Program-made: the position numbers and the translations under genes
NCBI GenBank assembly: GCA_020726505.1
Contig: JAHLEZ010000020.1
Coordinates: forward strand, 682,001-746,000
Source: Leptodontidium sp. MPI-SDFR-AT-0119
Lineage: Eukaryota; Ascomycota; Leotiomycetes; Helotiales; Leptodontidiaceae
Reading direction: 5' to 3'
DNA: 64,000 nt
Notes under the pieces: generated by a model
What the model was told of the DNA's origin: nothing
Databases searched by the model: none
Seen by the model: the letters and a program-made list of their open reading frames with translations, nothing else
In this document: positions 19,362-63,508 of the stretch, piece after piece
Position numbering within the stretch: position 1 is the first letter of the stretch
Layout of the letters: the number at the start of each line of letters is the position of its first letter

Positions 19362-19364
19362 GCC

Positions 19365-38846: not shown

Positions 38847-40675
38847 CAGCCCTTGCACTTGAATTCCATGTCATTAGATGACGGCCACCCCGTCTCTCGC
38901 AAGGATGGTTAGAAATCTAGCTCGACTAGGCGTACCCTCTTATTCATTCTCCCCACGACCTCCCTGTGAACTTTGTCGGCTATAATTCGGTCAGCACACA
39001 CTATTACGATTTTAGTTGGTGGTCTAAGGATGTGATGAACCGACGCCTACGGGAGACCATCACCTTGCCTCGGTGGGATTCGAACTCAGTCTCGAGTACT
39101 TTGACAACATTCGGGGGGGTGAATATCTTCTTGATCTTAGAATGACTCCCATATTCCAAATCTTTCTTCCCGTAGTCCTGGACATGAAGGCAGACCTCGA
39201 GGATCCACGTAGTGTTAGCAAGCTAACAATTTTAGATGACGCATACGCACATATCCGGTATCACTATCGAGGAGATCATCCATCTAACTCTTGACCCACT
39301 GCTCTTGGCCTGAGAGGAAATTAAAAGCGGCAGGAAGATTTTTCTTCTCCTTGACTCACTTTCTTTGTTTATTTGCCAGACGAGGAGAATCCGACGCGTC
39401 CGTACTTCGCAATTGTTATATCCGCTAATGAGGTCCTTGATATATGGAATATGGCCCGCTATGCCGATCCCGGTGGCAAACATGATCACTGTTCCGTAGT
39501 CTCCAAACTTATGCTGTATCCCGTATGGTCCATCGATGAATGCAAGGAGCTCTCTGTTGGTGTACCTATCCAACTGCCTGGTAAACCCCGTCCTTGACTT
39601 CACTAAGAGGGAGATTGTCAACCCTTTCTGGCTCTAATCCCACCACGAAATCATGAAAGGGTGTCCTCGCAGTCCTACTAAGACCCCAAGTTTAGGGATT
39701 GAAAGGAAGACATGCTGACTAGCCCTAACCTTCCACTTTCTAGGCACGGTTATATCGACCTGTAATACGTTCGACGGCTCTGTAAGCGACTTATCAGATG
39801 GGTAGGGATTTGAGAGGCGAGTTGCTATCGCTTTTGCAAATGGCCTGCCGATGGCAAAGTTTCTGAATGCGAACATAAGCCAGTGGAGTGTCGTCATCCC
39901 AAGCCACAAATATATGCCGATCTGTAAAAATATCTCCGCCGGCTTTTTTGAGAATACGTGACGTCTAATGGCGATTGACGCCGTGATGAAGAGAAGTAGA
40001 TGTAGATTAAGAAACCATTCGTAGAAAAGCCTCCGCCCGACGCGAAACGAGAAAAGGAGAATAAACCCAATAGCGGAGCTCGCCTATGACTTGAAGTTAG
40101 CCGAAGATCCCCCTAGGGGAAAGCCAACGCAGACGCACCACAACTCCAGAGGCATTAATCCCCGTCCATACGAATGACTGACTGCCAGTCAATGATATGA
40201 TCGTGTGCAACAAGACCTCCGCGACCGCCGTTCGGCCCAACCATTGGTGGCTTCTAATGCTGGTCCGCAGCGAAATTCCGAGCATCTCTGTCATGAGGCT
40301 CAAACGCGGACCGCACAGGAGCGGAATGAGGTTGATAATCGACATTGTAGTAGCACGGGCGCCTATATCTGACCTTGACTCCACCCCAACGACTGTGACG
40401 AGGACGGTATTCGTGATAACGTACGCGGATGCGAGTAGAACCTTGAGACGCGTTGCCGTCCCTACAAAGGGAATCCTTGGAAAGGCATGTGGATATGTAG
40501 TATGTTTCAAGAAGAAGGAGGAAGTCGAGAGCCACTCGGAGGTGAACGTACGATAGATGGCACGAAGGAAAAGCCATATGGCAAAGATATAGGCAAAAAT
40601 GAAGCAGTACCGCGACGGTATGTCCATGTCACTGAGTTTAGAAACCCCTGAACGTACAAATGATGAAAACGACAT
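38847..40675 (-). pseudogene. Ferric reductase (FRE family), full-length but nonsense-mutated
   Basis: A membrane part (MSFSSFVRSG... LMTEMLGISLRTSIRSHQWL, VAEVLLHTIISLTG) joins, through a GT-AG intron at about 40110-40059, to FRVGRRLFYEWFLNLHLLL. Then follow the FAD-binding block (VFLSIPKLG, RGHPFMISWWD) and the NAD(P)H-binding block (IDGPYG, FATGIGIAGHIPYIKDLI). The C-terminal end VELDF-stop-PS closes the family alignment. In-frame stops: TAG 39634-39636 after WWD, TAG 39284-39286 after WVKS, TAA 38909-38911 after LDF. The enzyme would move electrons across the plasma membrane to reduce Fe(III) or Cu(II) before uptake. FREs are one of the recurrent accessory families of Starship transposons. 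Confidence 0.85.
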
Positions 40676-40848
40676 GATTGACAGTGCTGTGAGTATCCAA
40701 ACTTCTAATGTTGGAAAATTGAGAATCCCGATTCGGTCCTAGAGATGGCGTTATGCCGCTTGCCAGTAATCACAACCATCAGCATTGTGAGGCCCACAGT
40801 AATTAACCTGCATAACCGCAGGGGTGATCGGCTAAGAGTTTATGAACC

Positions 40849-40912
40849 GAGTGGTCACTCAAGTGATAATTCAAGTAGATTATGGAAGTGATCATTCAAA
40901 TGGTCGTCCAAA
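40849..40912 (+). repeat. Degenerate 12-13 bp tandem repeat upstream of a MADS-like gene
   Basis: Units of the form AGTGATCATTCA recur with changes (AGTGGTCACTCA, AGTGATAATTCA, AGTGATCATTCA, AATGGTCGTCCA). The array ends about 115 bp before the ATG at 41028. Confidence 0.5.
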
Positions 40913-41027
40913 AGGTGGGCATTCGACATAGTGGTAACGATGATATTGCAGCTTGGTACAGGTGCCCACCAATATAATGACGGGTAAGTCCACCTCTCAC
41001 TAATCTTCATCGGCGTCAACTCTAATC

Positions 41028-41483
41028 ATGGACAAGCGGGCTAAATCAGAGCAATTTCGCAAGAGGAAGAACAACTTCTTTCATCGGGGTTACGATATTA
41101 GAGTGGTCTGTGACACGGAGGTTTTCATCCTCTTCAAGAGGAACGGCAAATTCTACACTTTCGCAAATACGGAGGAACTAGTATGGCCAACCGAGGAAGA
41201 TATCGTGAGTTAACTATGCCCCAAGAGAAACTCTATGCCTAACCCTCGTAAGTAACGTAATCTAGTCATTTCTAAAACAGCTGCGGACTACGAAACTACG
41301 TCTCGGGCGAAGGAGAAAGCTTCTAAAGTAAACGCAACCACCTCATGCCCATCATACGCTTCTGAGGATATGTCTACCTTACCCTTACTTGGAATTAAAA
41401 CCCCAGAATTACCACGACTCGATTTATCATCCCAGTACAGGGTGGGAGGTTGGAAGGACTTTATAGCATCCCTAACTCGCTGA
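41028..41483 (+). pseudogene. MADS-box (SRF)-like protein, probably disrupted
   Basis: The first exon reads MDKRAKSEQFRKRKNNFFHR and then GYDIRVVCDTEVFILFKRNG, which matches the MADS/SRF DNA-binding helix and strand (basic KRK, CDTEV, then FKRNGKFYTF). A GTGAGT follows EEDI at about 41206. Downstream a frame from about 41283 (ADYETTSRAKEKASKVNATT … LPRLDLSSQYRVGGWKDF) looks like its second exon but does not join in phase with the visible splice sites. It is either a frameshifted gene or one with a splice site I missed. Small MADS-like proteins of this sort are common in fungal accessory DNA. Confidence 0.5.
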
Positions 41484-41854
41484 ATGAGGTTCGGGTAGAA
41501 ATGGCTCGACCTTTGTCATTTTGGGTTTTAATAAACAAACCAAAGAGTTTTAGAAGAATGAAAAACTATGCTCAGGTTTAATTCGTGTGAGATTTGACAA
41601 GTCGCTTTTAAATGGTGCGTTGACGAATCGTATTCGGCATCTGATATGTGAGTAGTCTTTCTTAGCCGCTTCAGCAGGATAAGATGAGTATAGTTCGTCG
41701 GAAGTCTGGACATCGCTCGATTGTTTTGGGTATGTTCTATGATGGCTCATTTGATCACATACAATTAATCTAGGTATGGTTGTTTGATGGTTTCATTTCT
41801 TGTCTATATATTCCTTCAACCTGGCAAATCTCCATCCCCAGCATCCTTCTCATC

Positions 41855-42232
41855 TATTTAGCTGCGGCAATACTATAGCGGCTGGTGGGACGATGGCCGC
41901 AATCATGGGCAGGCTGGTAAGTAGCGCGAAGCTGGAGCTCGTGCTCGTTAGAATGTTGCTGAGGGCAAAACCGGACGGCGGCAATCTTGTATCGATGAGG
42001 AGGCTCGAGGGCAGTGCAGATGTGTATTCGATGGTTAGCGTGTAGCCCGGGTTCTCGACCTGCCCCTTGGCGACGGTGCTCGCGATCTTCTGTGACGGGA
42101 GGCTACTATGTTAGCAACTGAGGATTCGTCGATCTGATATGCTCACAATGATTCTGCTCTGTCTCTGCAAATTTTAGCGAACATAGAACGAAGATCAGTG
42201 CAAGTGCCATAGCGAGTGGACTCTTCATCTTG
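41855..42232 (-). CDS. Possible small secreted or membrane protein
   Basis: From 42232 a signal peptide-like start is read (MKSPLAMALALIFVLCSLKF). After a possible intron the same strand reads IASTVAKGQVENPGYTLTIE and LPSSLLIDTRLPPSG through a hydrophobic tail ending near 41855. The two parts do not join in frame with the visible splice sites, so it may be a broken gene. Local GC content is higher than the surroundings, which favours former coding. Confidence 0.3.
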
Positions 42233-42614
42233 CTGGAATACTGTTGCGTTCTAGGTAATTCGCATATCGTTTCCTGGGTCGCTAGATAACTGTTGCGTTA
42301 GATAAGATAACAAGAGGAGATTTAATCTCGTGAAATACTCTTGTTCAATTCCAGATCAAACCGATTGTGGGTGCAATTAGACCATCAACTAATGGCTCCC
42401 GGTGGAGCCCTCTATTATTTGACTGTTAGATGACCACTTGACGACTGGTGGTGAATTGCCTCCATATATTTAGGGTGGTGTAGCCATCCGGTTTTAGGGG
42501 GTATTAATCTATCATTGTAATATCCCAATGAGAAATGATTTTAGAAACTTTGTTGAGTGATATATATTCTTGGATTTAACCCCGTGTTCTGACAAGTTCC
42601 AAGGAACAATCAAG

Positions 42615-43877
42615 ATGCCGAAAGAGACGAAACCCAAAGGTGCAAGCAACAGGGTAGCTCCTGTCACGTCAGCAGCCAGAAAGGCACGCAAACAAGAAGT
42701 TCGCGGGAAAATTCTGGAAACCACTCTCAATGTCGAAAAACATCGTAACGACGTCGCAGAAAAGAAAGCCAAGCTAGAAGAGCTCTCGAAGACTCCCCTC
42801 GATAGCTCCAGGCCCGGGGAGAGAGCAGAGTACGACAATCTGAAGGCGGAGATCGCCAAGTTAGACGGAGAGTTGATGGAGTGGGAGAGAGAACTGGAGA
42901 AGTTGAACAAGGAAGACAAGGATATCGATATGGAACGTCAAGAGGATGGTGACGGCGGGGGACTCTTCGTTCCGCCTGGGGAACCAAGTGCTTCGTCCAA
43001 CAACACCACTCGGCTGCCTCCGATCGACCTAACTGAGCCCAACGGCAAATCCACACCACTAGTCATTGGCGAGCCGTCCGAGGATGAGGAGGCTGTGTTC
43101 ACGCCAGCTCAAGCAAGGGAGGCGACAGGACAGAGCCATGGTGGAAAGATCGTTGCATGGAGGCAGCAAGATCGGTCAAAGCCAGTTATTGTGAGATATG
43201 GTCCCCAAAACGCCGCAAAATACGAACGTTCCACGGCTGCCAAAGAGGACAACGACTTTGACGAAGAGGAGACTGAGCAATTTGGTCCAGACCATAGACT
43301 TGGAGACTTGAAAGTCGCGAAGAAATTCGTGCGCAAGAGACGTGAGCTATTGGGGATCGCGGGCTTGGCCTACAACTGCGATTTGAAGGACCTGGAACCG
43401 AGGGAAAAGGGCGAAACTCGAAGAGTTGCTCCTCTTGAAATTTGGGTTAAATGGGAGATTGGTGGTGTCATCCAAAAGAAGTGGGAGGTCCGGTCCTCGA
43501 TTCGGCACCTCTTCAGCAACGCCAAGAAATGCGATGTCTATATCTATGAGGCGGCAAAGTGGCACGCGGCTCGTCACGAGGAATGGCAGAACGGCCAGCG
43601 TGAGGCAAAGGACAGATCTCTGACCCCAGTCCCGAACAGCCGACTCTCACCAACGCCCGAGCCAAGTCAGCCAGAGATCAAGATTGAGGGTGGAAATATT
43701 GGCAACCCGCCTGCTGCTACCAATGGCACAGCATCGTCAAAGGCATCCCAGCGAGCAGCAATGCTGCAGTACCGTGAACAGTGGTGCGACCTCAAGGGCA
43801 TAGACCCAGAAAATATGGAGCCGGCCGCTGAGGGAAGGTTCCTGAAGGCCTGGAACGAGATCAAAGATTTATTGTGA
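42615..43877 (+). CDS. Hypothetical 420-aa coiled-coil protein
   Basis: Single exon from ATG 42615 (MPKETKPKGASNRVAPVTSA) to 43877. Residues about 20-110 are a long Lys/Glu-rich coiled coil, followed by an acidic linker (GDGGGLFVPPGEPSASS) and a more ordered region at about 240-340. The latter contains KKFVRKRRELLGIAGLAYNC, LEIWVKWEIGGVIQKKWEVR and KKCDVYIYEAAKWHAARHEE. The end (YREQWCDLKGIDPENM) is well formed. I do not recognise a family. It is uninterrupted, unlike its neighbours, and basic plus acidic segments suggest a nuclear protein. Confidence 0.65.
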   Translation: MPKETKPKGASNRVAPVTSAARKARKQEVRGKILETTLNVEKHRNDVAEKKAKLEELSKTPLDSSRPGERAEYDNLKAEIAKLDGELMEWERELEKLNKEDKDIDMERQEDGDGGGLFVPPGEPSASSNNTTRLPPIDLTEPNGKSTPLVIGEPSEDEEAVFTPAQAREATGQSHGGKIVAWRQQDRSKPVIVRYGPQNAAKYERSTAAKEDNDFDEEETEQFGPDHRLGDLKVAKKFVRKRRELLGIAGLAYNCDLKDLEPREKGETRRVAPLEIWVKWEIGGVIQKKWEVRSSIRHLFSNAKKCDVYIYEAAKWHAARHEEWQNGQREAKDRSLTPVPNSRLSPTPEPSQPEIKIEGGNIGNPPAATNGTASSKASQRAAMLQYREQWCDLKGIDPENMEPAAEGRFLKAWNEIKDLL

Positions 43878-44273
43878 AAGCTGTGGAATTGAGGAGGCGG
43901 AGTCCGGTATCTGAATAGGTACTGCCAGAGTATCACTCTCTGCTCACTCTTGATCTCGGATGGATAGACTTTCTTTTGGCCCCTTGCTCGTTTCCTTTTG
44001 TCTAGCCCTCCTTGTACTGACGAGTCGATTTTATTTTTGTCAGTCCTTACCGATATATACTCGCATCCCCTCTCTTTCACCTTAGATTTCCTTGCCCACA
44101 GTCTATCATTACATACAACTTCACATGCTTTTGTAAATAGATAGAATTCCAAATGTACAGCAATCTGCATAGCTGAGACCAGAACATCTTAGCTACTACC
44201 TATGATCCGAACAAGGCTCATCAACCTTACTCTAGGATGACCATTCTTCTGTGACCTTCTCATCTTGGGCTCC

Positions 44274-45985
44274 CTAAGCAAGCAGATACTCCTTTAAGTT
44301 AATTGACTTATTCATTCTCCTCCGGGCCGCCTGCATTTCCGCTTCATTTTCTTTGAGCAACCGGACTCTCTTCTCCTTTATCGTGTCAATTTCTTTCTCT
44401 GTCTCCTTAATTATCTTCTCAATCTTTGAAACCGATCCGCTTATCCATAGGATTTCGTTGGTAAGGTGTTTCCCAGGTGAAGTCTTCCGTTGTGGTCGTT
44501 GGCGGTTTAGTGTATTATCCATATTGTGGTTTCCTGCTGCTGCTCAATTGTGAGTTTGAGAATCTCATTAAAGTCTGCTGCAACTTACAGGAGTTTGAAG
44601 CTGACACCGGAGCTCTCTCGTCGTTAGTAGCCTTGGAGCGCTTTCGCTTCTTTGTGTCTGACTTAGCCGAAGCAGACTTCGGGCTAGCTTGGATCTTCCG
44701 GGTTGTGGTGGAAATCGGTTCAGAATCTGCAACTATATGTTAGGCCATTCATGAGTAGTGCTAAGGAGCACTCACTTGTACTTGAGGGTGATGGTGACCT
44801 GGATGCCTGCGTGCTCTTGGCTACGCTAGGTCGAAGACTTTGAGGATCGGTAGGGTAGCAGGGTAGCTCTGATCCGGTGGCCATATCTACCTCATCGTCG
44901 TCCGTCAAATCAATCACCGCTCGGTTCGGCTTGCGTGAATCGTGAGGGGCGGGAGAAGGGGGCGGGGTAGGCTTGGAATGCTCGTTGGCCGGAGTGCTAA
45001 TGGACTCATTGTTATGATCGCTAGCTGGCCGCTCTGATCTAACGACCATGTTCAGCGCCCGTTCCTCCATCAAACCAGTTGCTGAAGTTGGTTCTTCATT
45101 TCCTAGTAGTTTTTGTGAGTCCACCGTGTTGGCAGCCTTCTCTTCGTCTGCAATTGCGCTGAGTCCAGTGCCATCATGTTTGATTGGCCTCCCAGTCGAG
45201 GATGTGGTCTGATCTTCTTTCTCCGAGCTCGTTCCCCACTTCTCGAGTAACGTAGTTGCTCGGTCCTTAAAAGAATATTTGCCGTTTCTTGGGATCTCAT
45301 CTAGATTTGTGATCTTTTTGAGAAGTTTGGTAATCCTGGTAGCGCGCAGGATACTTTGCGGTGGGTCTCTAATCTGCTCTAATTTCTTCAGGTAAGCAGA
45401 CATGGTTTTCATCTCATCTGCTTCAGGCTGTCCAGTAGTTGGCAAAAACCCTTTCTGTAGCTTGTGCCGCAAAAATCGAAGTTGAGCCTTGCTTGTTGTT
45501 AGTATTTGTATGCTAAGTCTGAGTTTCCTGCCCAAATATACCTCTAGCTCTTACATTGACTTGACCTCCGGTTTTGGTTGATCGTCGCCTCCCTTGGTAT
45601 TTGTTTCTGATGCTTTCTGGATCGCCGATTCCGGAGTAGAGTGGATAGGATGAGGCGTGGAATCATCGGCATCAGCCATAGGAGGTAGAACGCCCGTTGT
45701 CGGCTGGGTGGCTCCAATGGGACGTGTCTGCGTTTCCTCTGCAGTGAATTGGGTTTCGGAACACGAGCTCTCAATTCTCTGTTGCAGAGTCTTTGCAGTC
45801 GAATCCGAGTCGCAAGTATCGAGACCAAGAAGGGCTGATAGGTCATCACCGTTCTGTGGTACGGCTTCTTGGAGATAATCCGAATCGTACGTCTGGAGAT
45901 CGTGGAGGGTTGGTGGATCCGTGTCTGATGGCCAGTCGATCTCTATGCTTGGCTGGCTGTCATGGGTCTGCGGTTCTGGATTCAT
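44274..45985 (-). CDS. Nuclear protein with TFIIS-N/LEDGF-like domain
   Basis: Four exons (45985-45555, 45491-44776, 44732-44589, 44536-44274) give 1554 bp, 517 residues. The second exon carries a helical domain (AQLRFLRHKLQKGFLPTTGQ, ILRATRITKLLKKITNLDEI, KDRATTLLEKWG) with the closing LLxKW typical of TFIIS N-terminal/LEDGF-type chromatin-interaction domains. Flanks are disordered with NLS-like KKRKRSK and an acidic DLTDDDEVD patch. The last exon is a coiled coil (SVSKIEKIIKETEKEIDTIK). A strong branch-point TACTAAC sits near 45498. The role would be chromatin or transcription related, by analogy only. Confidence 0.6.
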
Positions 45986-46906
45986 GTTGATCAAAGATGC
46001 TGGATCTAGGAGGGGGCCGAGGGTTCAAAGAGATGAAAACTGTAGGACAAATGTTTGTCCTCAGAGCTGGGAGGGAGACGACTTCTTATACTTCTCCCTT
46101 CAAGAGATCGACCCACTATCGGATCCCACTTTGCCATCATGCTCGGTGATTTACTGAGTCAGTAGCGGTTGTGATACATCTCGGGAGGAAATATTTGTCA
46201 ATGGCAAGGCAGACTTGCCGAAAATAGCTCCGGATCACCAGATTCCACGCACAAATCAAGACAAGTCTCCTCTCCTGTGGAACCAGCTGAGTGCCATCGG
46301 CATATGGCGTCGTCATGGCAGCTTGGAAGCAGCTTAATTGGAGCCAGTAACTATTCTTGCACAGATATGGAAAGGTTCAGCGGGTCTCCTTCCACACTCC
46401 TTGAACTGCCATTGACGAAAATATCCCTTTTCACCGACAGATGCTCCACTAATAATCCCTTAAGCGTCTTTTCGTCACCCCCAAGCGCCTTCAATACGAG
46501 AGATATTTTTGGATAACGCCTAGAACTGCGATGTGGAATGCCTTCTAACTTCATGATTAGTAGATACTATTCAAGAGAGGCACAGGCTCGACGACGCAAT
46601 GAAGACCAGCGCCCATCTACAGCTGGCATATCCATGATCCGCCCCAAAAGCTGACGAGCGATGACGACCGTCTCTGCCTCGTCTATTTCTAGCACACCTT
46701 TTACAGACATGCCAATGGAGAAGTCGGCCCACCTCCTCCAAGTAGACCGATCGCGGAGAGTTCTCTCCGGGCTCAGCGACTGCTTGAAGTAGAAAGGAGC
46801 ACTTCGCCCTCCTCTGACCTTCATCTCCTCCTACGTCTCAACTGTAGTCTGTAACATTCTCTCATACTTTCATCACCTCTTTCCACGTCAAGAACCTGCA
46901 TAAGAA
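45986..46906. other. Weakly coding region
   Basis: A minus-strand frame 46824-46567 starting with ATG (MKVRGGRSAPFYFKQSLSPE … EAETVVIARQLLGRIMDMPA) and another at 46554-46351 look protein-like but have no recognisable domain and could be exons of one gene. I do not call a gene. Confidence 0.3.
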
Positions 46907-47911
46907 ATGTCAGCCAGTCGACAATACGCAGCCTCATCCGGTGTATGTGATGCTCAGTACCTTACATCTTCCAACATCAATCCTGACTCACTAATTTCTT
47001 AACTATCTAATAGTGGCCACTTAGCCGGCCGCGATACAGCTAGAGAGGGCCAAGAAGGCCATGGAGATGCTCCATTCAACATCCTCTGTCACGCAGCAGC
47101 AGGGCTCCGCTATATGCAGAATGTGGCCTATGGGTGTGACGGTAGTTGCGTTCGTTCCGTGCCCATATACAACATGCTAATCGTAATGTAGGAGCGACCT
47201 TTCAGGAGGATGCAATGGGGAGTTGCTCCCTGAATGATGAAATTTCAGAAGTAGATTACAAGTCTACCAATCGTGAGGCCGGAACCTGTCAGCAGGCTGG
47301 CTCGCATGGTATTACCAAACTTTCTGAAAGCTTCGAAGAGACACAAAACTCTGCTTAGAGTAGGACCAGTGTCGAGATGCTGGTCAGAGATGCGAAAATG
47401 TCACCCGGGACGCCCCCATTACTCCTATCGGGAGCCCAGCTATAGGCCGTGGCAACCCGTGGCGCCGAAGCGCCTCAAGTCGGAACCGGAAATGCCCTCG
47501 GGAAACTCGGCAGTGTCGGTCTTAATAAGCGTCGACGGGAACAGACATCGAATCTCTCAGCTGTAGACACCAATGAAAGTAAGCCTCGCTCTCCATTATG
47601 TTAGTTTATACTCACATTTTCAAGGCTCTGATGACGGTGCCCGGGGTTCAAAGAGATCTAAAGTGGACTGCGACTGTGAGGATGATCATTTATGGTGGAT
47701 GACCATCAAGATTGGCGACATGAATGAAGCTCTTCATCGAATCGATGCTGCGATAGGTCTGGTTGTGGGGTTGGCATACGGGTCAAATGACCTAGACAGT
47801 GTTACAATTAATAATCTCGTTGATCTCCTCAAAAATTCACGGGCAATTTTGGACAGTGCGAAAGACGATATGAGAGCAGAAGGTGGAATAGATAGAGAGG
47901 CCACAGAATAG
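46907..47911 (+). pseudogene. Hypothetical multi-exon gene with two premature TAG stops
   Basis: MSASRQYAASS (46907), then after an intron AGRDTAREGQEGHGDAPFNI, a second intron (GTAGTT to AATGTAG, about 47140-47190), then GATFQEDAMGSCSLNDEISE. The same frame passes TAG at 47356-47358 (NSA-stop-SRTSV) and TAG at 47443-47445 (AQL-stop-AVATRG). It continues to NKRRREQTSNLSAVDTNE and, after a last intron, to GSDDGARGSKRSKVDCDCED through DATIGL-like helices to 47911. Both stops are one C-to-T step from CAG. Basic clusters suggest a nuclear product. The family is unknown. Confidence 0.5.
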
Positions 47912-47936
47912 CTGGATCTAAATATCGACATTGCCA

Positions 47937-48461: not shown

Positions 48462-48860
48462 AGACTTTTTAGAAGGTATATGATTTATTGTGCGACGTCG
48501 ATCAAGCGGTTGAAGTAAAGTTCTGGGTCTCCTAAAGCAGTTAGACGATGGACCATAAGTGGTGCCCATCAACTTGCTGCTGCATCAATAGTGACCACCT
48601 CCAGGGATGAAACACCCACGTTAGATGGTATGAACTACCGTCTAATAATTGAGGGGTAGGTTGGCTGGCTGCAGAGAGTACTTGAAGGCTGTGAACGCAG
48701 TCGAGTCGAAATCTCACATCTACAAGCCCCAAAATTCAAAATTCACCTGGAGAGGAAAACTCAACAAGAGGTAAGAACCTAATAACTTTGACAGTCATCG
48801 AATCTAACAAATAAAGCAATGTGTATCATCGTCTATCTCAACGAAGACTAGTTTAAGGCG

Positions 48861-49145: not shown

Positions 49146-49380
49146 ATACCCGGGTACACGATATCAAGTTGCGCTCTGATTAAGAGGGTGTATCTGAGGT
49201 CATTCTTTGATTAAATGGCAGAAATTACAATTACAATCATCTCTAAACAACTCTATTGTGAATAAATTTCTGGTGTGCTTTGATTGAGATCACGTAATAC
49301 TTGCACTCGCCACCAAGTTCTTAGGCCAGCGTTATGATTGGAGGGTTGGCAGTTATGGGGCATCCCGGTGTTGATGACCC

Positions 49381-49623: not shown

Positions 49624-52600
49624 ATGATTAAAGTTGCCGATGGAAATCAGATTTGCATACAAACTGTTATTGGAGGCGATCCCCTTTCAATCAAGTGTCA
49701 GTAACATGGCGTTGTGTGCTCACTAATACTGGCTCCGCGTGTATTAGGGTGAGAACGGTGTCGGAATGCAACATACGAATCGACTTCACCATATTTCGAC
49801 CTTGTTTCCGGACCCCGTAAACCAACGTCCATCGATACTGTTCTTTCTTGGAAAGCAGCTCAAAACACGAGTATTGAGAGATCTATATCCCGGCAACACC
49901 ATATTAAACTGTCGAAAGTACGGCATCGCAAACATTTGTCTCTATCCGGCCACACAAAACGATGAACATCCAATTCTCATCGCGGATAGCTGCCCTGATT
50001 ATACACAAGCCAAGTTGAGAGGCAAAGACACCTGCTATGAGACGATCAATCACCCGGTGGGCTGGCTAGACGAGGGTGACCAACAAAAGCAGCAGCACTT
50101 GGCTAGCCATGCCCTGGCCAGACTATTCTCGTTATTCATCGATGTGTTGTGCATATTTGCCCAGGATTGCGGCGGCCTTGACGGAGTGGTAGACATGTTA
50201 GCAGGGTAGACAGCAATCGGCTCGGCGTCGAGCCTTCCTGATGCTATCCGTCCTCGATTGGTCGTCGTCACGAGTATACCTGGCGATATTTTCGCATCTG
50301 AAGCCCTTCAATTTCGTCTAAGGGTTTTATCCGATCGTAAGTTCTCAGAGTCATTCTCTTCGTTGAATGTAGTCAACGTGTTGGGCCTAGGTCGAACCCC
50401 CTCGCGCGAGCATTTCAAAGGGCTGGCAGAGGCCCTGCAGCACGAAACGCATCTGATTCGTGCTGAGAAAATCAACTCCCACACGCTTTTCTCCATGATT
50501 CATATCACCCAGTTCTTCGATGCAGTACTGCGCCAGTTCGCGACATCGCCACAGACCTTTGATTTTATTCTATGCTCAAGAGAATTATGCCCTGTTTCCC
50601 ACAGCTTCCAGCATCACCTAAGCATCTTCATAGGCTTATGTTCTGAGCACAATATTCCTGCAAGTATGATTTGGGACTTCATTGCCTCAGTGGTCATTTT
50701 TGACAGCTTCTCTCCGGACATACACAGTAAGTGTTGATGTTAAACATCCACAGGTGGAATCTAACTAATTGGAAAAAGTGTTCAACCCATCAGACGTCTT
50801 CCGAAACTTATACCGTCAATCTTGCGTCCTGGGTATACATGACTTCGCAAATTCCCAGCAGTTAGATGTCGACTTGATCACTGCCGACATCGAGGCCCAT
50901 ATAATCTCTATGTTCTCACACATGAAGTACGGTGGACAGTCAGCAGCTGCACTTCGCCAGAGAAGCTTGGGGCGAAACTTCTAACATTGGTCATTATTAT
51001 CGCATACCTCGATCTGCCTCACCTGTCTCTAGAGGAATTTGGAACACTATCTAGAGTGTGGACATGCTATTTGCGACGATTGTCTTGTCGCCTTTGGTGA
51101 GCTAACGAAGGGGGCGGAAGTACCGGTACGACCTCGCCACCTGTCCTTTCTGCTAGAGGGGGATTCATTTTTAGGCCAGACTCTTGCCGCCCACCTGTCG
51201 AGTAAGATTCCTTGGCATTGATGGGGGCGGTTCTAGAGGTATTATCTCCTTGGCATTCATGGAAGAGCTGGAAAAGACGCTGGACCTGCTATACCCTCTG
51301 TAGGAGCACTTTGATTATGGCATCGGGACGAGTTCAGGTAAGGCCGGCTTCGTGAGCTAGTTCTAGGCTAACAGCCAATAGGTGGTGTTGCAACCATTGG
51401 GTTCTTTGCTAAGTACTGGACGCCAAAGCAATGCCTCGCTTTCTTTCTTAAGTTTGCGAAGATTATCTTCCCACTAAAGCGCGGTTGCAGGTATTTAATC
51501 TGTGCTATACTCAGACGTATCTTTGCTTCCTATCTCGCAAATGGCGGGTACGACGCAGTCGTTTTAGAAAAGGCTCTAAAGGAAACATTTGGATTAGGCC
51601 GGGTGTTTGATTCGGCAAAATCAAGGCCATCCGGAATGAAATTTGTAGTTACGGCGACGACGATATCGGATGCCACATTATGCCTGATCTCAAATTATAA
51701 TGGTAACGGCCCTCCTGGCAGAGATTCAAGTAAGTTGACACCTCTCACATTCTACCAAGACTAACACCCCAGGATATAAACATCTTCGTGCCAAGAAGAC
51801 GACGGATGAGATGCTACTCTGGGAAGCGTAAGTCTCCTTGGTTGTTTGTTTCGTGCTAGCTAACGATGGACAGCGCGAGGTGTACAACAGCTGCCCCAAC
51901 GTAAGAGTTATATTTAGCAATTAGAGACTGGTGCTGACTGAGCTAGTTACTTTACGCCAAAGTATCTCGAGTCATTTGGTACGTTCCAAGACGGCGGGTT
52001 GAAATATAATAACCCTGTCCGACCCGGCCTGCGTGAAGTTCGCCGGATTTGGGGTGATGTAGGTTGCGATCTGGTACTTTCAATTGGGACGGGATATCAG
52101 CAGAAGCTCTTATCGCCAGTGGCTTCCAACGTCCGGAACCTGCTACAGGATAGCGCCCTGGCTCGCGTCTATCGAGCTTCTATGCAGTCGTTATCACTTA
52201 ACGGCCAACTTAGCTGGGAAGATCATTGGCATGGCCTTGATGAGGAAGAAAAGAAACGGCACTTCCGGCTTAATTTGCCCCTTATAGGTCAGGAACCTCG
52301 GATTGACGATGTCGACAAGATGTAATATCTCCGTGATCAGATCTACCATCACTTAGGCGATATGGAGGGTATCGCTAGGGCTTTCAAAGCAGCGTCCTTC
52401 TTCTTTGAGCTCAACGGGCCTCTAGTATTCGAGGGTGGGCAGTACACATGCCACGGTTCGATTTTGTCCCGGAGTCCAGACAGTCGTGCCCTTGTGCAGA
52501 GTCTCAGAACGAGCTACCCCTTTGCACAGTTCCTACATCAGGAATCTTCGCTTGGGTTCCTAGCCCCGAACGATATCTGCGAGTTGTGTGGACGATTCCT

Positions 52601-52867
52601 GAAGCTGATTAAGTTCCACATACGCCATCCCTCGGATCGAGTCAACCTCTAGTTTTCATTTAGCAGATTGTTCCGTCGGAGCATCAGTGGGTTTCCGCAG
52701 CCAATGGAATAGTTCGTCAAACGGCAGAAACTGAATGCGAAGTTTGGACTGCCTGACCATAAAAGTAGAAACGAGCGAGCTCAAAATCCGGCCTGCAGTT
52801 GTGAGCTCATGCGTTACCTTGACAGACCTGTCAAGCTCTCAGAGAGCAAACGGGCCTTAGGCGTCTA
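49624..52867 (+). pseudogene. Patatin-like phospholipase (PLP family), nonsense-mutated
   Basis: The N-terminus MIKVADGNQICIQTVIGGDP and the long fungal-specific region (FPDPVNQRPSILFFLGKQLK, LFIDVLCIFAQDCGGLDGVV, RPRLVVVTS, LECGHAICDDCLVAFGE) precede the patatin domain. The oxyanion loop is IDGGGSRGIISLAF (about 51215), the nucleophile GTSSG is split by an intron at about 51336, and the catalytic Asp is in DGGLKYNNP. In-frame stops: TAG 50207-50209 (AG-stop-TAIGS, Trp expected), TAG 51301-51303 (PL-stop-EHFDY), TAA 52323-52325 (DKM-stop-YLRD) and TAG 52710-52712 (PME-stop-FVK). It would hydrolyse lipid acyl groups. PLPs are recurrent Starship cargo and, in other fungi, relate to programmed cell death pathways. 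Confidence 0.83.
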
Positions 52868-53150
52868 AACAAGAACACAGAATAAGAGGCGGCGCTTAAG
52901 ATGAAGGGAAGGCGATGTAGCAAGTCTCATTTTTGAAAGCTAAACCCAAATAAATCAGTTGTTTATTACTTGACTCTATTACATGATGCATTTTTTGCTT
53001 TATCCCATCCCGTGAGGCATTCGTAAACATGCTCTCCGTCTGCCCTGCTGCCCCGGCAAGCCCTAGAACTCGCCACACAAAACGACAACAAACACAGATA
53101 CCGGGCTTGTCTAGCCATCAAACACTCCAACCTTGCACGACCCAACTGCC

Positions 53151-54068
53151 TTATTTTCTGGTTTGGAAAGATATCAATCCTGGCATCTCATCCTGAACAT
53201 GGCGCAATCTCTGTACGATATGGGAAAAGCTAGGTTCCTCATCCGAATCCACAAATGGTTTTTTGAGGGCTGGGAAGACTCTGCGCAGGCAGCGTTCGAG
53301 CACTGCGAAAGCATCCAAGTCTTGTGCCGGAAACAAACCGACAAACATTAGAACTTCCTTCAGGTCATGAATTTGTTTAAAATGGAGCCGTGTAGTACCG
53401 AAGCAATGCTCCTTTGGCAACCTTTTGTGCGAGGCGAGGAAAACCGTACTAGAAGGCGCAAAGCGTGACCCGTAAGCTTCCAGGAGCCTCGCTATCGCCA
53501 AGAATATATGGCCTTCCCCATTCTGGATCTGTCGCTCCACAGCTTCATGAGTTTCAAGACCGAGTCTCGTAACCATTCTGAAAGCTACTGCTAGACTGAG
53601 CCTAAGACTTTCCAGAACCTCATCCAAAATTCCCGCGTCCGCCTTCATTCGTTCAAATTTGCTCCGAAATAGAGCTATTGCCATTTGAGTAAGATGGTAC
53701 GGTGGCGCTACAACATCATGGACGATGGCGGCAGGCAGTGAGGCAAGCCCTACCGTCCGTAGTCGCTGATGGCAGCTGGACGCATACTTGGCCGCCTCTA
53801 TTACCGATGGTACTTGCGTGAGCTTTCTTCGATGTCGTCTCGCCGTGTCCGTGAGATGATAGACCTTCTTGCAGGAGTTGAGGTAGCAGTAGGGAATTCT
53901 ACCAGCGATCCATGCGTCTATCTCATCTGACATGCCGATCAAAGTTCCGTAGCAATACGCGGGAGGGTTGATGTCCTCAAGCGAAGAGTCATATGCCGGA
54001 GGAGATCCATCCGCAGGAAAGAATTCGTAGTCGTGTTGGCAGCGCTCCGTAGATGAAGTCTGATTCAT
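53151..54068 (-). CDS. Hypothetical protein, 305 aa
   Basis: An uninterrupted frame from ATG 54068 (MNQTSSTERCQHDYEFFPAD) to 53151; the frame is also open to an ATG at 54182, giving 343 residues. The N-terminus has two PPAY motifs, and the rest is helical and rich in Leu/Ala (AKYASSCHQRLRTVGLASLP, LESLRLSLAVAFRMVTRLGL). No family recognised. It is one of the few undamaged single-exon genes in this stretch. Confidence 0.6.
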   Translation of the reverse strand: MNQTSSTERCQHDYEFFPADGSPPAYDSSLEDINPPAYCYGTLIGMSDEIDAWIAGRIPYCYLNSCKKVYHLTDTARRHRRKLTQVPSVIEAAKYASSCHQRLRTVGLASLPAAIVHDVVAPPYHLTQMAIALFRSKFERMKADAGILDEVLESLRLSLAVAFRMVTRLGLETHEAVERQIQNGEGHIFLAIARLLEAYGSRFAPSSTVFLASHKRLPKEHCFGTTRLHFKQIHDLKEVLMFVGLFPAQDLDAFAVLERCLRRVFPALKKPFVDSDEEPSFSHIVQRLRHVQDEMPGLISFQTRK

Positions 54069-54182
54069 GATGGAGGATGGAAGAGTGCAGTATGGAGAAG
54101 AAATGTGAAGTGATGAGGAGAAGATAGTTGACAGAGGGAGGGAAGCTCGTCCCTTTATATCTTTGGAGCTCATGGGAGCCAC

Positions 54183-55740
54183 GGCTTTAGACTGCCTACG
54201 TGTCCGAAATTATTAATCCAGCCCACCATTTAAACCATGTTCGAGGCAGCATGGTGGGTGTCTCGACCAGCTCCTCAGGGGTTTAACGCTGCACCTTCAG
54301 CAAGATGCTTTGCAGTGGAGCTGGTATCTTCAGGAACTTCCTTCCTTCCGACCGGTTTACTGTTTTGGATATGCCAGCCCGTCTCTATTGTGGAGAATAG
54401 CTGAAAACTGAGGAGCTTCCTTTGCAGATACGAGAAGCGAAAGTCACCTTGGGATTTCCTAAGTCACAAACAGCAAGTGGGTGCTGATCGATCTCGGTGT
54501 CTCTAAGCCACCTCGGCAGAACGTGATCTCTCCTTCGGTATAAGCTACCAGTCATGGTATAGGTAGGTATGGCAATGGGATAGCTGCGAAACGAAGGGGC
54601 CGCGGAAGCGGAGTACCAGTAGGATAAACAGCCACCAAAAATAGCAAGGCAGACTTGCTAGCAGAGACCATGAGGGATCCATATGGATAACTGGGGGTGG
54701 TGCAGGGTTTTCCTCCCATCCGTCAGTCACCCTCTTTTACATGTCATATCATTATCCTGCAATATGAGCTGCGAACTTCAAGCTAAAACAATGCGTGCTG
54801 CAAATGAGAACTTCCCGTCTGTGAGTTCAGGTGCCAAGGAATCGGGCAATATACCGAATATACGAAAGACTATACGGAACACTATGCGCAACGTACTAAG
54901 GCTGTTTGAGAGGAGCCCAAAAGTAGATGAGTCAGTTCTTCATCAGTTACCCATGTTACATCTGATCACATGTGCAGAACGGAAGGCAACAAACGCGAAG
55001 TTCTTCGACCAGCACGGAGAAAGCTCTGAGCCAGTATGTTATAGGTGTATCCGATGCGATACTGGAACCTTCTAAGCCGACGCATATTTCTAGATACCCA
55101 TAACAGCGCCTTGAGTCGAAGAGATATTCGATTCAACGAATTACGACATGTGGCTACATGTACTGTTTCCTTCCGAGCATGAGCTGACTCCTTTAGATTT
55201 AGATGTGAGGTTTCGGAAGCGGGGTGGAAGAGGCTGCGACTGCCCAATTGAGATTTCGGGCACGGCCATGAGATATTTTCAGCTAGCAACTCGAAGTTCT
55301 ATTCGTATATGCCCCCTCACTTATTTACTAGACGTTTAACGAAAATAGCCAACTGCTAAGAGCGTCAGCAGTGACGGCAGTTCGGTAATGGTTGGGCTTC
55401 AGGGGAAGCAGTTGTGTTTGGGCCAAAACGAGATGCGGCCGCGCGGCGGAGGTTGAGCGCAAAATTGAGTCAAGTGAGCTGGGCCGGGGCAATGAGAGGG
55501 CCCGAGAGAGATAAGAGGGGTATATTGTTCACAAAACTCGAGTTCTCGGGAAGTCTAGAGCTCTCTTAAATTTATCACATAACCTTCAACTCTCTTGCCC
55601 GCGCCACCTTCATACATCAATGTGTGAAAGTGCTACAAGCCGGTTCACTAAGCCAAGTCGCCCTAAGACACGTGAGCTAGTTGCAAGATGCACGAGTAGT
55701 CTTAGGTGGTATAAGACCATCTAGATACTGAGGGCCAGAC
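54183..55740. other. Intergenic with unsupported frames
   Basis: A 130-codon plus frame (54683-55075, TIRNTMRNVLRLFERSPKVD) is the best open frame but lacks any similarity I know. No repeats until 55741. Confidence 0.3.
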
Positions 55741-56042
55741 CACTTGCACCAACAACTTGTTTGCACCAATCACTTACTAGTACCACTCAGTTTATAGTAC
55801 CAACAACTTGTTTGTACTAGAAATTCAATGGCACCAGTATTTTGATGGTACTAATGACCTATTTATGCCAGCTATCCGTTTGCACCAACTATTTCTTAGT
55901 ACAAAAGTTACTTTGGCACCACCAAATTATTTGTACTAATAGTTTCATGGCACCAACTGGACTTTAGTGCCAACATGAGTTTTGTGCCAGCCATTTCCTC
56001 GTACCAATGATTTTCCAGTACCAACCTTTTTTTGTTACCAGT
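55741..56042 (+). repeat. Degenerate minisatellite, unit about 18-20 bp
   Basis: About 15 imperfect copies of a unit like AGTACCAACAACTTGTTTG or GGCACCAACTATTTCTTAGT run through this segment. The array ends about 180 bp before the ATG at 56220. Confidence 0.7.
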
Positions 56043-56219
56043 GACTTGACGAGGATGACGTGTAGCTACACATTAACACAGCCCCCTTGATCCGTAGGCA
56101 TATCGACTATAAATATAACGTCCTCACACCTTGGAGATTGACTCCCCTTTACATCTCTGCGCCTTATTTGTTTCAACGTTTCCCACACATCAACCATCAT
56201 CCAGATCAGTAAAGACAAG

Positions 56220-57042
56220 ATGTCAAGTCCCCAACCACACCTAGACATCTCTAGCGCGCCCAGTACCCAACAGCTTTCGTCCTCCCAAAGCGATCCCCTG
56301 GTTTTCCACCCTTTTGAGAGGCTTGCCCTGGAAATAAGGCGGTATATCTGGTCTGAAGCACTGCCACCACCCAGGATTCTTGAATTTGAATTTTGGAACG
56401 ACTGGGTTTTTGGGGGTACTGGAGAGCTCGCACCAGCCCTCTGCTCTCCTTAGTGTTAATAGAGAGTCGCGAACCCTCTTCCTCCAGTTATACCGGAAGG
56501 TCGACCTACTCATTTTAACCTCAAACGACATATATCAAAGGACAACGGCGAAAGTAGTTTGGCACTTCAACCCCATGATCGACACGATATACATCAGCAG
56601 CATTCCGCCACACCCAGTATCAGCAAACCATTGCCTTGATCGAATGGCCACCGAAATTTCCTTTAGGGAACTACGATTTCTCGCGGTTAATCATTCTTTC
56701 CTTCACGAGATCTTAACACTGCGCAATCTTACGAGGTTTCCAGCGATGAAAGAGCTGTGCGCAATAACTGCCGATCCATTATGGGACAAGAGGGAGGATT
56801 AGAACTGGATTAAAGTTGATGGCAAGATCGAAATAATCGAGAAATCCTTCCTTTGGAATGAGGACGGAGAGTCACGGATTAAATACCGAGAAACGTCGAT
56901 AAAGGATGGTATAAAATGGCATAAAGACCGCTTTTTGCGTGAAGTTGATGCCCAAGGATTATCGATGACATTGATTCCAGTAATCCGAGAGATGAACATC
57001 TTGCGTGGAGGAATAGGAATGCTAGGTATCGGAGATTGGTAG
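56220..57042 (+). pseudogene. 2EXR-domain protein, frameshift and stop
   Basis: MSSPQPHLDISSAPSTQQLS leads into the 2EXR motif (FHPFERLALEIRRYIWSEAL, PPRILEFEF). At about 56443 the frame shifts by one: the first frame ends in LAPALCSP, the second continues ALLSVNRESRTLFLQLYRKV, the expected end of the motif. A TAG at 56800-56802 (KRED-stop-NWIKVDGK) is the second lesion; the frame stays open to 57042. 2EXR proteins are an abundant, mostly uncharacterised fungal family related to F-box-like proteins. This copy is disabled. Confidence 0.65.
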
Positions 57043-57179
57043 GAGGCTACGTGGATGATTATTTTACAAATTGTGTGGGTGGGGTTGCTTGAGTTAGGGT
57101 TTAGAGCAATTACAGCAGCTGTAGTTTCTTTTTGGGTGTTTGGTGGAAATCTTCTTATTTAACAATCCAAGCTATATAT

Positions 57180-58358
57180 TCAACCGCTAACAACTAATGT
57201 AGCTGAATCCGACGTCTTCAAGCTTAGACTTTCGATAGTATCCCAGCCTGCATAGTGAATGAATGGAATCATAACAGTTGGCGATACATGGGCTAGGAAG
57301 CGATGCTAAAACAAAATTGATAAGTGGACTTAAAGGCAGCAAGGGGACCTCTCACTTTCTCAATTTCCTTTAACGTGCCCCAGGAGGTGACCTCGAGGAA
57401 GTTCGATGCCTCTGGTGACCAGCGGTCGGGGTGCTTCAAGACAAACTTCCCGTCCTCCTCCGGGGGGATGCCATTCTGTATCATTTCGATAGCGATGACC
57501 CCAAGAGACCGTGCAGCAGCGGATTCCGTGGTTCTGCATTCATTAAAGTGGGCTTAAGCATTGATTAGACTGGTGTATATGTTATGATCCCGAACAACGC
57601 ACCTATTTTTACACACCCATTTGGTGAGAATAATACCCTGGAGCTATCCAGTTTCTTATGAGACATACCAAACCTAGATAAATGCTGCATGCCTTCAAAG
57701 ACCTACGCGTTTTAGTCGTTGAATTTTCGGAAACATACGAAGGATGTACCTGACGGCAAGTCGCGGACACGTGCCGCTCTTCGAGAGGCAGTGGGATGGC
57801 GATAATTTGCTTGAGAGTGGCGGCCGTATAGTCCGTAATAATGGAAAAGACACCTTGAAAGCGATAGACCTCCGTAATCGCTAGTAGGTTCTCGTGTTGG
57901 CATTTTCTTAGCTCCAGAAAATCGTGGGACACAAGCTCTTTAATGACGACCATACGCACAGGAACCTCCCGAGTACATGCCACCGTGACTTGGCCGCCGC
58001 GCTCTAGATGACGAAGAGATATATAAAAGTCCCAGGGACTCTCTACTCGAACGGGAGGAAGCTGATTTACTTCGGAGATCTCGATGTTCGTTTTCGGCAC
58101 AGGTTTCTCTAGGACAATATCGGGAGGATTAGCCCTTATGGGCAGTCGAAATGGAAGTTGGGCGGGTTATTCTTTCTCTGGAGAAGATTCAACTAGGTGC
58201 TCTTCTTTCTCCAATAGACGGATTTTTTCGATATCAGTGCCTCCTGGAAATCGGGTACGTCGATTAAGGTTGGCATTCTTCTTGCTAACATCAGTTTCTA
58301 CTAACAGAGCCTGATCATTGCTTGGAAACCGTGTTTTCCGATTGAATTTCATATCCAT
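57180..58358 (-). pseudogene. Pseudokinase-type protein kinase domain gene, one stop
   Basis: The N-terminus MDMKFNRKTRFPSNDQALLV runs to a TAA (58167-58169) and continues PAQLPFRLPIRANPP. The kinase fold follows: VVIKEL (strand 3 Lys), LRKCQHENLLAITEVYRF, DYTAATLKQIIAIPLPL and TCRQ. Two introns (about 57748-57702 and 57602-57551) lead to VFEGMQHLSRFGMSHKKLDS, AARSLGVIAIEMIQNGIPPE and SPEASNFLEVTSWGTL. The HRD loop reads SHKKLDSSRV, without catalytic Asp or Asn, so the family is a pseudokinase. The start is back-to-back with the DUF3723 gene. Confidence 0.65.
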
Positions 58359-58414
58359 GGTCGATAGGGTTAGTGAAGTGTACTACAGGTATCTGCCGTA
58401 TGTATTCAAGTGGT

Positions 58415-58545
58415 GAGCACCTCGCCCGATTCTGACACCCCCGCAATTTCGTCTCGCTTAACTATTGACCACTATCCCTCCACAAATGATGGGTTAATCA
58501 ATGCACCACCTCGCTTAATTTTGACTACCTTATACCCGCCAAAAG
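58415..58545 (+). repeat. Degenerate CACCTCGCTTAATTTT repeat in a divergent promoter
   Basis: Imperfect units include GCACCTCGCCCGATTC, GTCTCGCTTAACTATTGACC and CACCACCTCGCTTAATTTTG. It lies between the pseudokinase (start 58358, minus) and DUF3723 (start 58697, plus), about 150 bp from the latter. Confidence 0.55.
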
Positions 58546-58696
58546 TGAAGAACTAGTATTACTTAGGAAGGGACCATGCAGTCATTACAGAAGGGCGGTG
58601 CTATCATAAACGTCTTGCCTGTTACTACTGCAAAGTTTGCAACTCCAGCACTGCCATTTATCCTGTCTCATCCGAACCGATAGCTGCCGACTCGAC

Positions 58697-60966
58697 ATGG
58701 AAACATCAAGTCAGGAAACTCTTGCCGCCATAGACCAGAGGATTGCAAGCGATAAGTTGGCCAAGTTCAAGGGCGCAGCTCAAGTATCGATTCGACACTT
58801 AGAATTTCCACACCCAACTCGTCAGATCGATAGGAAGGCTATCCGGCAGTTGATAAGAGATTTCGATGGCGAAGGATGCATTCGAGAGGAACCGAGCCAC
58901 CGGATTCCTGTCATTGTCGATAATTCGATACTGCAAGCTGCGCTTGAGAAGCTCTCTCTCACAACCGAAACGTTCAAAGCAAAAGCAGACCATCCACCCT
59001 TCCTAGAACTAGAAAGCGGAGTAAAACTGGAATGCCTTCACGGCCAACATCGAATTCTGGCAGCGAAAGAGCATCTTGCCGCATCGCAATGGTAGTGGGT
59101 AGTTGATATCTATGGGACCGGTAGCTGCACCTGTTCTGACGTGTGACCAAGCTAACCACAACCTAGATCTCAACAAAGATACCAAGCAAGCGCTTCGCGA
59201 GGGGTATTCATACTCAGCAAAATACACATCCGGCGAAGTGTTTCGGCACATGCGCCTCTGTCATTACGATAATGATCCTGTGGGAGTACAACGCTGGCGG
59301 GGAAGGTTTAGCCCTTCTCAAGACAAGTTTTTAACGTAACTCCTCAAGCGGCCTACACTAGTTGCCGCTTTGGATTCCGTTCTCCACATCCAGGGTATCT
59401 GGAGAGAGTTTTATATAGGATCTCTTGATGTCTTCTTGTTTCCGAAGTGTGACGAAGTCAGTTTTCTTCAATCTCCGAAATATCTGGTCTAACTTAGGAC
59501 AGGAAATCGCTCATTACATCAACTCTACTAAAGTTATTTTCACCCATATTTTCAATGGCGATATGGCCGCGATGATGCGAACTGATCCTACCTCCATAGA
59601 ATCCATACAGTCGAGGTCGCCTGCCCTTTCGAAGTCAGATTATGAGTTTATCCGCGAGACCATAGGATCTGGCGAGCTTTTCCCCGAAATCGTCGATCCC
59701 CTAGAGAGAGCTGGCATCGCCCAGCGTCTGCTCGCTAGTGAGGAATTGATGCCGAGTCTATATACGTTAATCAAAGACATCAGGTACTTGAAGCAGCCAG
59801 CCGAATTCTTGTCCAAACTCCTACCTGCGTCCCGTAAGAAAACTCTTCGCCAGCGGTGGTTTCATTACTTTACCGGCACTGGATTAGATGGCGGTGGGAT
59901 CGTAATACAGCAGGGGGTGTCGGGTCCGTACACAACTGTCCCAAGAGGACACCAGGATGCTTTTGATGTCTGCTATCAGCAGCTGTGGCTTTGCTCATAT
60001 AGGGTATGCAAATATCCAAATGCGTATAGCCTGCTGCAGTTAGCGGAGCTTGCGTCCCGCTTAGGATTTTCGACTCCAAAGATCAAGTTCGAAGTAACTC
60101 AGGACCCTGCGCAAGCTATGGTTGAGAAGGCACTTCGGGACGTATTCTACACCCTGCGGCCAAACGAAAAATTCAATTTCGATGCTTACAAAGCAAGCCC
60201 TCTCATTGCATCATTCAAGGAATATATTAATAGCCAAGATACTATCCGCATAGATTCAGCATTCCCTCAAATTACTGTCACTGGCAAAGGCGCTCCGTTG
60301 TCTTGTAGATGTGGCCACGGCCCGATGGATACTCGGGACCTCGCACACCTTTTTTTGGACAAGATACACGTTCCCCTTTCCAAATATAGAAGGGATGGAG
60401 ATGAGATTAGTTCGTTTTATGTCAAACGTTCACGACATATTGCGTTCTTTGGTACGATAGACCTCACAGGAAGTCAAGAAGGCCCTTCCATGCATCTAGT
60501 GCCGGCTAGTTTACCTTTGCATCGCCATCAACTAGACGTATCTCGACCTGCCGTGGAAAGTACTGGTTCCACCCCTACCACAAATCGCCAAGCTCGTAGC
60601 CCAGATGAAGGTATTGAAAGCAACCAAGTTGTTTTGTTCAAGGAAGGGATGGTTAGATTTATTGAGAAGGGTGCCACTGTTGGAGAAGTTCCGTCCAGAA
60701 AGGAAGATGTTAACAACCAAGCCAAGGAATACGCGGATCAAGGCAGAAAATTATCGTTGATACAAGGCCCGTACTTCACCTGGCAGGATTGTTTTGATAT
60801 ACTTACAAGGACGAAAAAATCGGCTGTCATTGTAACTACGGTTGTTGAGTCGCTGGCGGGGAAGAGACGCCGGGGTGAAGACTTGCCTCAACGGTTACAA
60901 CCTGCAACAAAGGAAGCTTTCGACTTTGAGATGAACGAGGATGAGGACGAGGAGGAGGAGTTGTAA
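58697..60966 (+). pseudogene. DUF3723 protein, two stops and a frameshift
   Basis: METSSQETLAAIDQRIASDK (58697) leads to the conserved N-terminal segment LECLHGQHRILAAKEHL, then QW-stop-WVVDIYG (TAG 59093-59095). After an intron at about 59119-59165 come KDTKQALREGYSYSAKYTSG and QDKFLT-stop-LLKRP (TAA 59337-59339). At about 59455 one extra base shifts the frame from FPKCDE to VFFNLRNIWSNLGQEI. The large C-terminal part (FFTDT-like LYTLIKDIRYLKQPAEFL, RQRWFHYFTGTGLDGGGIVI, SCRCGHGPM) is open to 60966 and ends acidic. DUF3723 is an accessory family strongly tied to Starship transposons. The molecular role is unknown. Confidence 0.8.
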
Positions 60967-63453: not shown

Positions 63454-63508
63454 TTAGCCGAGCTTTTTAAGCGAGCCTTTTAAGGGGTAAAACACGGGGT
63501 CACTGTCA

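Follow-up and report, generated by a model that had tools for sequence, protein, structure and literature searches.

Identity of the locus

A 64-kb stretch of DNA from Leptodontidium sp. MPI-SDFR-AT-0119 (the window; positions 682001-746000 of contig C13, in a genome of 76,969,438 bases on 69 contigs) carries ferric reductase (FRE), patatin-like phospholipase (PLP) and DUF3723 genes, which raises the question of whether these are cargo of a Starship, a giant transposon with a DUF3435 tyrosine recombinase (the captain), or chance neighbors. An earlier note on the same DNA had read the right half of the window as cargo of a Starship remnant, with no captain in the window and a boundary outside it. 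The analysis revealed an element of 304,854 bp (C13:475,457-780,310) with both ends mapped and the window fully inside it. The window is thus very probably the interior of a Starship, likely mobilized by the DUF3435 captain at its left end. The reading as cargo and the boundary beyond the window both held, whereas the extent did not, the whole window lying within the element; "remnant" is too weak a term because both termini and an open predicted captain are present. None of the Starship features tested failed. Coordinates of individual features are collected in Table 1, where positions without a contig prefix are those of the window.

Termini of the element

The same start point was found in seven left termini (C13, C4, C19, C34, C5, C17, and C67), with diverging flanks. 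The left terminus begins TATTGAGATGTTRGTGATTTCATCC in C13, C4, C19, C34, and C5, with near-identical letters in C17 and C67, and in all seven compared copies it is preceded by a TTATTA-type tract. C27 supplies an eighth left end with the same start, which is 77% identical around the captain and 89% identical over 138 bases.

At the other end, C13:765801-775800 is common to C34 (93% identity), C17 (96-98%), C4 (94%), and C19 (90%), and a sampled piece at C13:778101-778280 matches C17 (97%) and C4 (94%) among the best 40 of 253 candidates scored. The match between C13 and C17 runs at 97% up to CACCGACACGCAGAATATTATTATTATT, with the final ∼200 bases identical, and is followed by divergence; the right end of C4 stops as in C13 and C17, and a C13 piece at 781101, past the right end, is already part of a dispersed repeat. 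A right end near C13:779,714, taken from repeat spacing, proved wrong, as the C17 and C4 match continues there and the true end is at 780,310. A 34-letter degenerate pattern of the right end, searched genome-wide with up to 2 mismatches, was found at four sites, three of them free of mismatches (C4, C13, and C17) and one with 2 (C34); the same pattern read backwards, as a control, gave none. All four of these contigs also carry a left end in matching orientation, and the two-ended elements measure 304,854 (C13), 401,716 (C17), 291,620 (C4), and about 253,560 bp (C34). The left terminus was also sought in inverted form within C13:460001-775800, with no good match, and no tRNA or Rfam structure was found at the left end (ARAGORN run with the bacterial code).

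The predicted captain

A DUF3435 profile search gave at least 115 exon-level matches in the genome, and none of those listed (the best 100 of 144 candidates genome-wide) falls in the window, in agreement with the earlier note. The search of the flanking contig that the note had proposed located a predicted captain, whose DUF3435 match (C13:476857-478210, + strand) faces the window from ∼204 kb away. Frame reading showed no other gene between the captain and the left end. The predicted model, built from visible GT-AG splice sites, comprises six exons and ∼798 amino acids, is free of stops, and has a C-terminal C2H2-like motif by eye. In a protein search with this model, 48 of 7,993 scored candidates passed an E value of 0.001, and PF11917 was present in all 48. 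The best relatives are from Hyphodiscus hymeniophilus (57% over 95% of the length) and Rhynchosporium agropyri (77% over 41%), further top relatives are from Botrytis, Pseudogymnoascus, and Cadophora, and the relatives overall belong to Helotiales and other Pezizomycotina. These relatives suggest a host of the Helotiales type, with the reservation that captains are able to pass from one species to another.

C17, C19, C4, and C34, which hold segments paralogous to the window, each have a DUF3435 match in matching relative orientation, which was predicted before the DNA of the captains was compared. The DNA around the C13 captain best matches C34 (93%), C19 (97%), C4 (94%), and C17 (95%), with lesser matches in C67 (83%) and C5 (84%) and a weaker one in C27 (77%), and the captain paralogues all begin at about one common base. 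A partial inverted copy of the captain DNA is located at C4:580960-582978.

The nearest other captains were considered as leaders of the window and rejected: the one at C13:600796-601985 (-) points left, and those at 824776 and 851176 (+) face right, so none of the three is directed towards the window. Elsewhere, DUF3435 clusters with FRE, DUF3723, or PLP were seen at C13:1026986-1128872, C14:195781-276485, C27:280215-398597, and C32:253367-337624; these four are likely further Starships.

Insertion sites and probable target

Dispersed, A/T-rich repeats that hold TTA tracts make up the four flanks examined (C13, C4, C27, and C17). The repeat on the left of C13 has about two dozen other long matches, and C4 and C27 adjoin this same repeat. 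Empty sites were judged on repeat copies within this one genome, standing in for isolates. When the two flanks of C17 are joined, they run straight through the junction in 40 of the 40 repeat copies listed (the best 40 of 150 candidates). The C4 flanks fit both sides of an uninterrupted repeat, C25:171651-172150, with 80% and 85% identity, and this repeat has a TTA tract at the C4 insertion point, although the TTA tracts of C4 are much longer and the fit is less sharp than for C17. The left flank of C13 is 95% identical to the same C25 repeat. Whether the locus is an insertion or a syntenic part of the chromosome can be answered within this genome, from paralogous copies whose flanks diverge and from target repeats that run on uninterrupted. 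With eight flanks on the left and three on the right to judge by, the target appears to consist of TTATTA tracts. The captain would recombine the element ends with such TTATTA-type sites and would thereby move all of the cargo.

FRE, PLP, DUF3723, and NLR-like genes

The earlier note had described full-length FRE, PLP, and DUF3723 genes. The FRE family assignment stands, on three Pfam domains that score barely above cut-off (Ferric_reduct 28.8 bits against 28, FAD_binding_8 22.2 against 22, and NAD_binding_6 24.7 against 22.2), and a genome-wide FRE search also hits the gene, at C13:721517-721780; full length does not stand, given an in-frame TAG. For PLP, the translated frames contain, one after the other, FLGIDGGGSRG, GIGTSSG, and a later DGG, which we take to be motifs of the patatin-like family. 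No Pfam match was obtained in the three open pieces tested, nor at the locus in a genome-wide Patatin search, and two TAGs lie in frame; its right limit, 52867, is taken from the earlier note. A PLP gene is present, yet it is not a clean full-length gene. Judged by their reading frames, FRE and PLP are both broken in the C13 element. The DUF3723 gene, placed by the note at 58697-60966, was recovered with a slightly longer extent; a TAG in its frame at 59093-59095 is either nonsense or part of an unmodelled intron. The TAG stops would fit changes of the repeat-induced point mutation (RIP) type.

A DUF3723 match is present in all four two-ended copies (C13, C17, C4, and C34). Across the genome, 12 of 33 FRE matches have a DUF3723 locus no more than 50 kb away (1.5 expected, p about 1e-8), as do 6 of 28 PLP loci (1.3 expected, p 0.0015), the PLP of the window being outside the 28; the test, with 40 DUF3723 loci, was post hoc, with exon matches merged by hand and contig ends ignored. 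To the right of the window, NLR-like genes with NPHP3_N/NACHT domains and ankyrin repeats span C13:754,804-769,221.

Of the other proteins named by the note, the pseudokinase found no support, 57612-58166 giving only a sub-threshold MerR_2 match, and the 2EXR protein (56338-56802) fell below threshold at 16.8 bits against a cut-off of 24.8. The MADS-like protein did not turn up in the Pfam scans, no separate search having been made for it.

Shared and unshared cargo

Parts of the window between 24 and 64 kb are repeated in other copies, and stretches located between the ends share orientation, the piece at C4:532340 being inverted (Table 1). The first 20,000 bases have no long match in other copies, inside which they match only in pieces of less than 600 bases that are found in other parts of the genome as well (for instance, 1217-1751 matches C17:138521). 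Cargo in these left 20 kb includes the tannase, the AA12-like gene, and oxygenases. The differences in cargo among copies would arise by gain and loss inside the element.

Two further observations concern this left part. An inverted duplication of the 2-oxoglutarate (2OG) oxygenase gene (2374-3584 and 10144-11350, with arms of 767 nucleotides at 95% identity, 250 nucleotides at 87%, and smaller ones) flanks the AA12-like gene. Positions 2328-5870 have a 78% relative at C56:359415-362972, outside any mapped copy, which is possibly the source or a sister of this cargo. An FAD monooxygenase suggested by eye at 4533-5472 was dropped, two frames having no Pfam match.

Cargo between the ends was scanned as open frames of at least 160 amino acids in four groups (25, 35, 30, and 27 frames); families are not tied to single frames except for the first in each group, and one group shows 25 of 90 families. 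Among the families listed are the enzymes homogentisate 1,2-dioxygenase, multicopper oxidase, GMC oxidoreductase, and desaturase, as well as transcription-factor, WD40, AAA, and NmrA domains and genes of long interspersed nuclear elements (LINEs), hAT, and DDE elements. The Helitron that begins at the right edge of the window occupies C13:745,801-751,461, mostly to the right of the window. At 20067-22084 (-), a long frame with a CCHC-like motif sits beside an endonuclease-like frame. By eye, these frames resemble a LINE, and the two that were tested gave no Pfam match. A frame of 438 open codons at 42561-43877 (+), without a Pfam match, appears coiled-coil-like by eye.

Table 1. Positions of the features discussed in the text
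Feature	Position	Strand	Evidence and remarks
Element ends	-206,543 and +98,310 in window numbering		Outside window 1..64000
Captain gene	C13:475,848-478,6xx	+	PF11917; 391 bases from left end, pointing inwards
2OG-Fe(II) oxygenase	2336..3680	-	PF03171, PF14226; arm of inverted duplication; not seen in other copies
AA12-like sugar dehydrogenase	7525..8935	-	PF22807, 100.3 + 110.1 bits
Tannase/feruloyl esterase	14269..15996	+	PF07519, 285.4 bits; 575 open codons
Copia-type retrotransposon	16379-19358	+	gag and integrase frames; one piece 98% to C21
Shared segment	24001..26899 (limit ∼26.6-26.9 kb)		Common to C19, C34, C4, C17; 90-95% DNA identity
Shared segment	26900..29748		C17; 90-95% DNA identity
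CSC1/RSN1-type channel	27356-29541		Pfam
GH18 chitinase-like frame	32098..32958	-	PF00704, 188 bits
Shared segment	38640..42181		C4:532340, inverted, 88%; C5 in two pieces, 85%
FRE	39235..40738	-	PF01794, PF08022, PF08030; in-frame TAG 39634-39636
Shared segment	41672..44000		C4:741523, 92%
Shared segment	44001..50833		C17, 92%
PLP	49748..52867	+	Motifs; in-frame TAGs 50207-50209, 51301-51303
Shared segment incl. DUF3723	56921..63251		C19, 92%
DUF3723 gene	58610..60966	+	PF12520, 62.6 + 180.7 bits (cut-off 22)
Helitron frame start	63801..64000	+	DUF6570, Helitron_like_N, PIF1; continues to C13:751,461
NPHP3_N pieces (NLR-like)	C13:754,804-755,484; 762,671-763,351		Pfam; right of window
Ankyrin repeats (NLR-like)	C13:755,802-759,275; 763,369-764,676; 768,094-769,221		Pfam

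Relative age of the C13 copy

At the right end, positions with C or G in C13 and T or A in C17 outnumber the reverse by 15 to 2 (887 positions), 10 of the 15 being in CpA, and the comparison with C4 gave 28 to 2 (600 positions, 21 of the 28 in CpA) and 2 to 0 (126 positions). At the left end, the near copies are mixed (C17 4:4, C19 4:2, C34 6:2, and C4 1:2) and the old copies one-sided (C5 12:2 and C67 11:2). From these counts, C13 looks to be the least RIP-affected copy at the right end, which the left end alone would not reveal. A positive composite RIP index and a low guanine-cytosine content were also seen at C13:460001-465000, 470001-475000, and 635001-640000, the second of which adjoins the left end.

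A broader picture can be offered tentatively. The element may belong to a living Starship family of 254-402 kb, whose captain would target TTA microsatellites in silenced, RIP-mutated repeats, a safe harbor in which several large copies could accumulate; the C13 copy would then be recent, possibly horizontally acquired, and still mobile. Taken as a whole, we regard this picture as possible but short of probable.

Alternative explanations

Several observations count against, or qualify, the Starship reading. A candidate terminal inverted repeat, TGTTGGTGATT against TGTCGGTGATT, lies 8-9 bases from the ends with 10 of 11 matches, and 822 of 20,000 shuffles were equally good. The length of the direct repeat is unreadable, as both ends adjoin TTA tracts. 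C19, C5, C67, and C27 have a left end and no match to the right-end pattern. The first intron of the captain was chosen from 12 in-frame options, and much of C13:480-682 kb was left out of the copy comparison. At the insertion site, the right flank of C13 is unmatched to the 500 bases of the C25 repeat past the tract and seems to pick the repeat up again ∼610 bases beyond its left flank. Nor do the two C13 flanks, when joined, appear among the 40 matches listed (the best 40 of 150 candidates). Because of this offset and absence, an empty site is not demonstrated for C13; sequence was likely lost beside its right end. Finally, a second DUF3435 locus (C13:600796-601985, - strand) lies within the element and points left, which implies nesting or rearrangement.

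This second locus may head a nested Starship, and it leads to the view that one element was enlarged by later Starships and repeats, the accessory genes of the window having come with another captain. Copy lengths that vary from 254 to 402 kb and the Helitron, LINE, hAT, and copia genes inside would fit such a history, and larger Starships with several recombinases are considered nested in the cited passages of PMC12289983. The second captain faces away from the window, however, and DUF3723 occurs in each of the four two-ended copies, with nearby pieces common to C17, C19, and C4, so that the accessory block would be old within the family. We consider this history rather unlikely; it alters the history of the element, not the place of the window inside a Starship.

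Segmental duplication, in which recombination copied repeat-rich accessory blocks between contigs with the captain as a passenger, would account for shared blocks that are broken up, one of them inverted (C4:532340), and that are all found on contigs rich in repeats and in DUF3435 matches. It is nevertheless highly improbable, as homology begins at an identical base in eight places and ends at an identical base in the three that were read, with uninterrupted target copies for C17; common termini are not expected from recombination. That three unrelated families are neighbors by accident in an ordinary chromosome has next to no probability: FRE and patatin matches are indeed common (33 and 34 genome-wide), but FRE and DUF3723 cluster above chance and the shared termini of the interval refute this view.

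Comparison with known Starships

Starships are the best-known vehicles by which large blocks of genes move inside a fungus or from one fungus to another. As a rule, their borders are located by isolate comparisons in which the empty site is clean. Four two-ended copies of more than 250 kb, one with a predicted open captain, from a single genome allow direct tests of target preference and of cargo turnover. Should this type of captain indeed favor dispersed repeats, methods that require a unique empty site would tend to overlook such elements. Open-licence literature on the host group and the target, searched with general terms, returned best matches without mention of Starships, which is no proof that the element is unpublished.

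The comparisons below refer to the cited passages of each article. A captain is reported to be both required and enough for transposition, and direct repeats to belong to the target (PMC12153272); Starships are reported to reach ∼700 kb (PMC11623301, PMC12134995) and possibly 989 kb (PMC12257634). As in the Starships of Pezizomycotina, the element has a DUF3435 captain at its 5′ end and accessory DUF3723, FRE, PLP, and NLR genes (PMC12134995, PMC12153272), with copies at different places and lengths of 254-402 kb within the reported range of 15 to about 700 kb; unlike these, its target resembles TTA tracts inside dispersed repeats. Four two-ended copies exceeding 250 kb contrast with the Starships of Aspergillus fumigatus, mostly present as a single copy per strain, and other species are reported to accumulate several (PMC12153272). 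Starships of the Hephaestus and Phoenix families, with TTAC(N7)A and with TTTAC/ATTAC direct repeats (PMC12153272, PMC12257634), share a short A/T-rich target beside the captain end, whereas the left flanks here are TTATTA-type and lack a constant TTAC, the comparison being one of targets.

The Verticillium Starships (17-625 kb, with cargo gain and loss and, in the larger ones, several recombinase genes, thought to be nested) resemble the element in size, in having more than one recombinase locus, and in its probable cargo turnover (PMC12289983). Their borders were found by strain comparison, and here by paralogous and repeat copies in one genome. Sanctuary, of about 200 kb, carries DUF3723, FRE, PLP, and NLR-type genes as an accessory class (PMC12506042), the same Starship families as found here, but differs in captain and cargo (no ToxhAT search having been made here). 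Taken together, the element belongs to the known Starships, and what is less usual is the presence of four very large two-ended copies in one genome, at TTA-tract sites in repeats.

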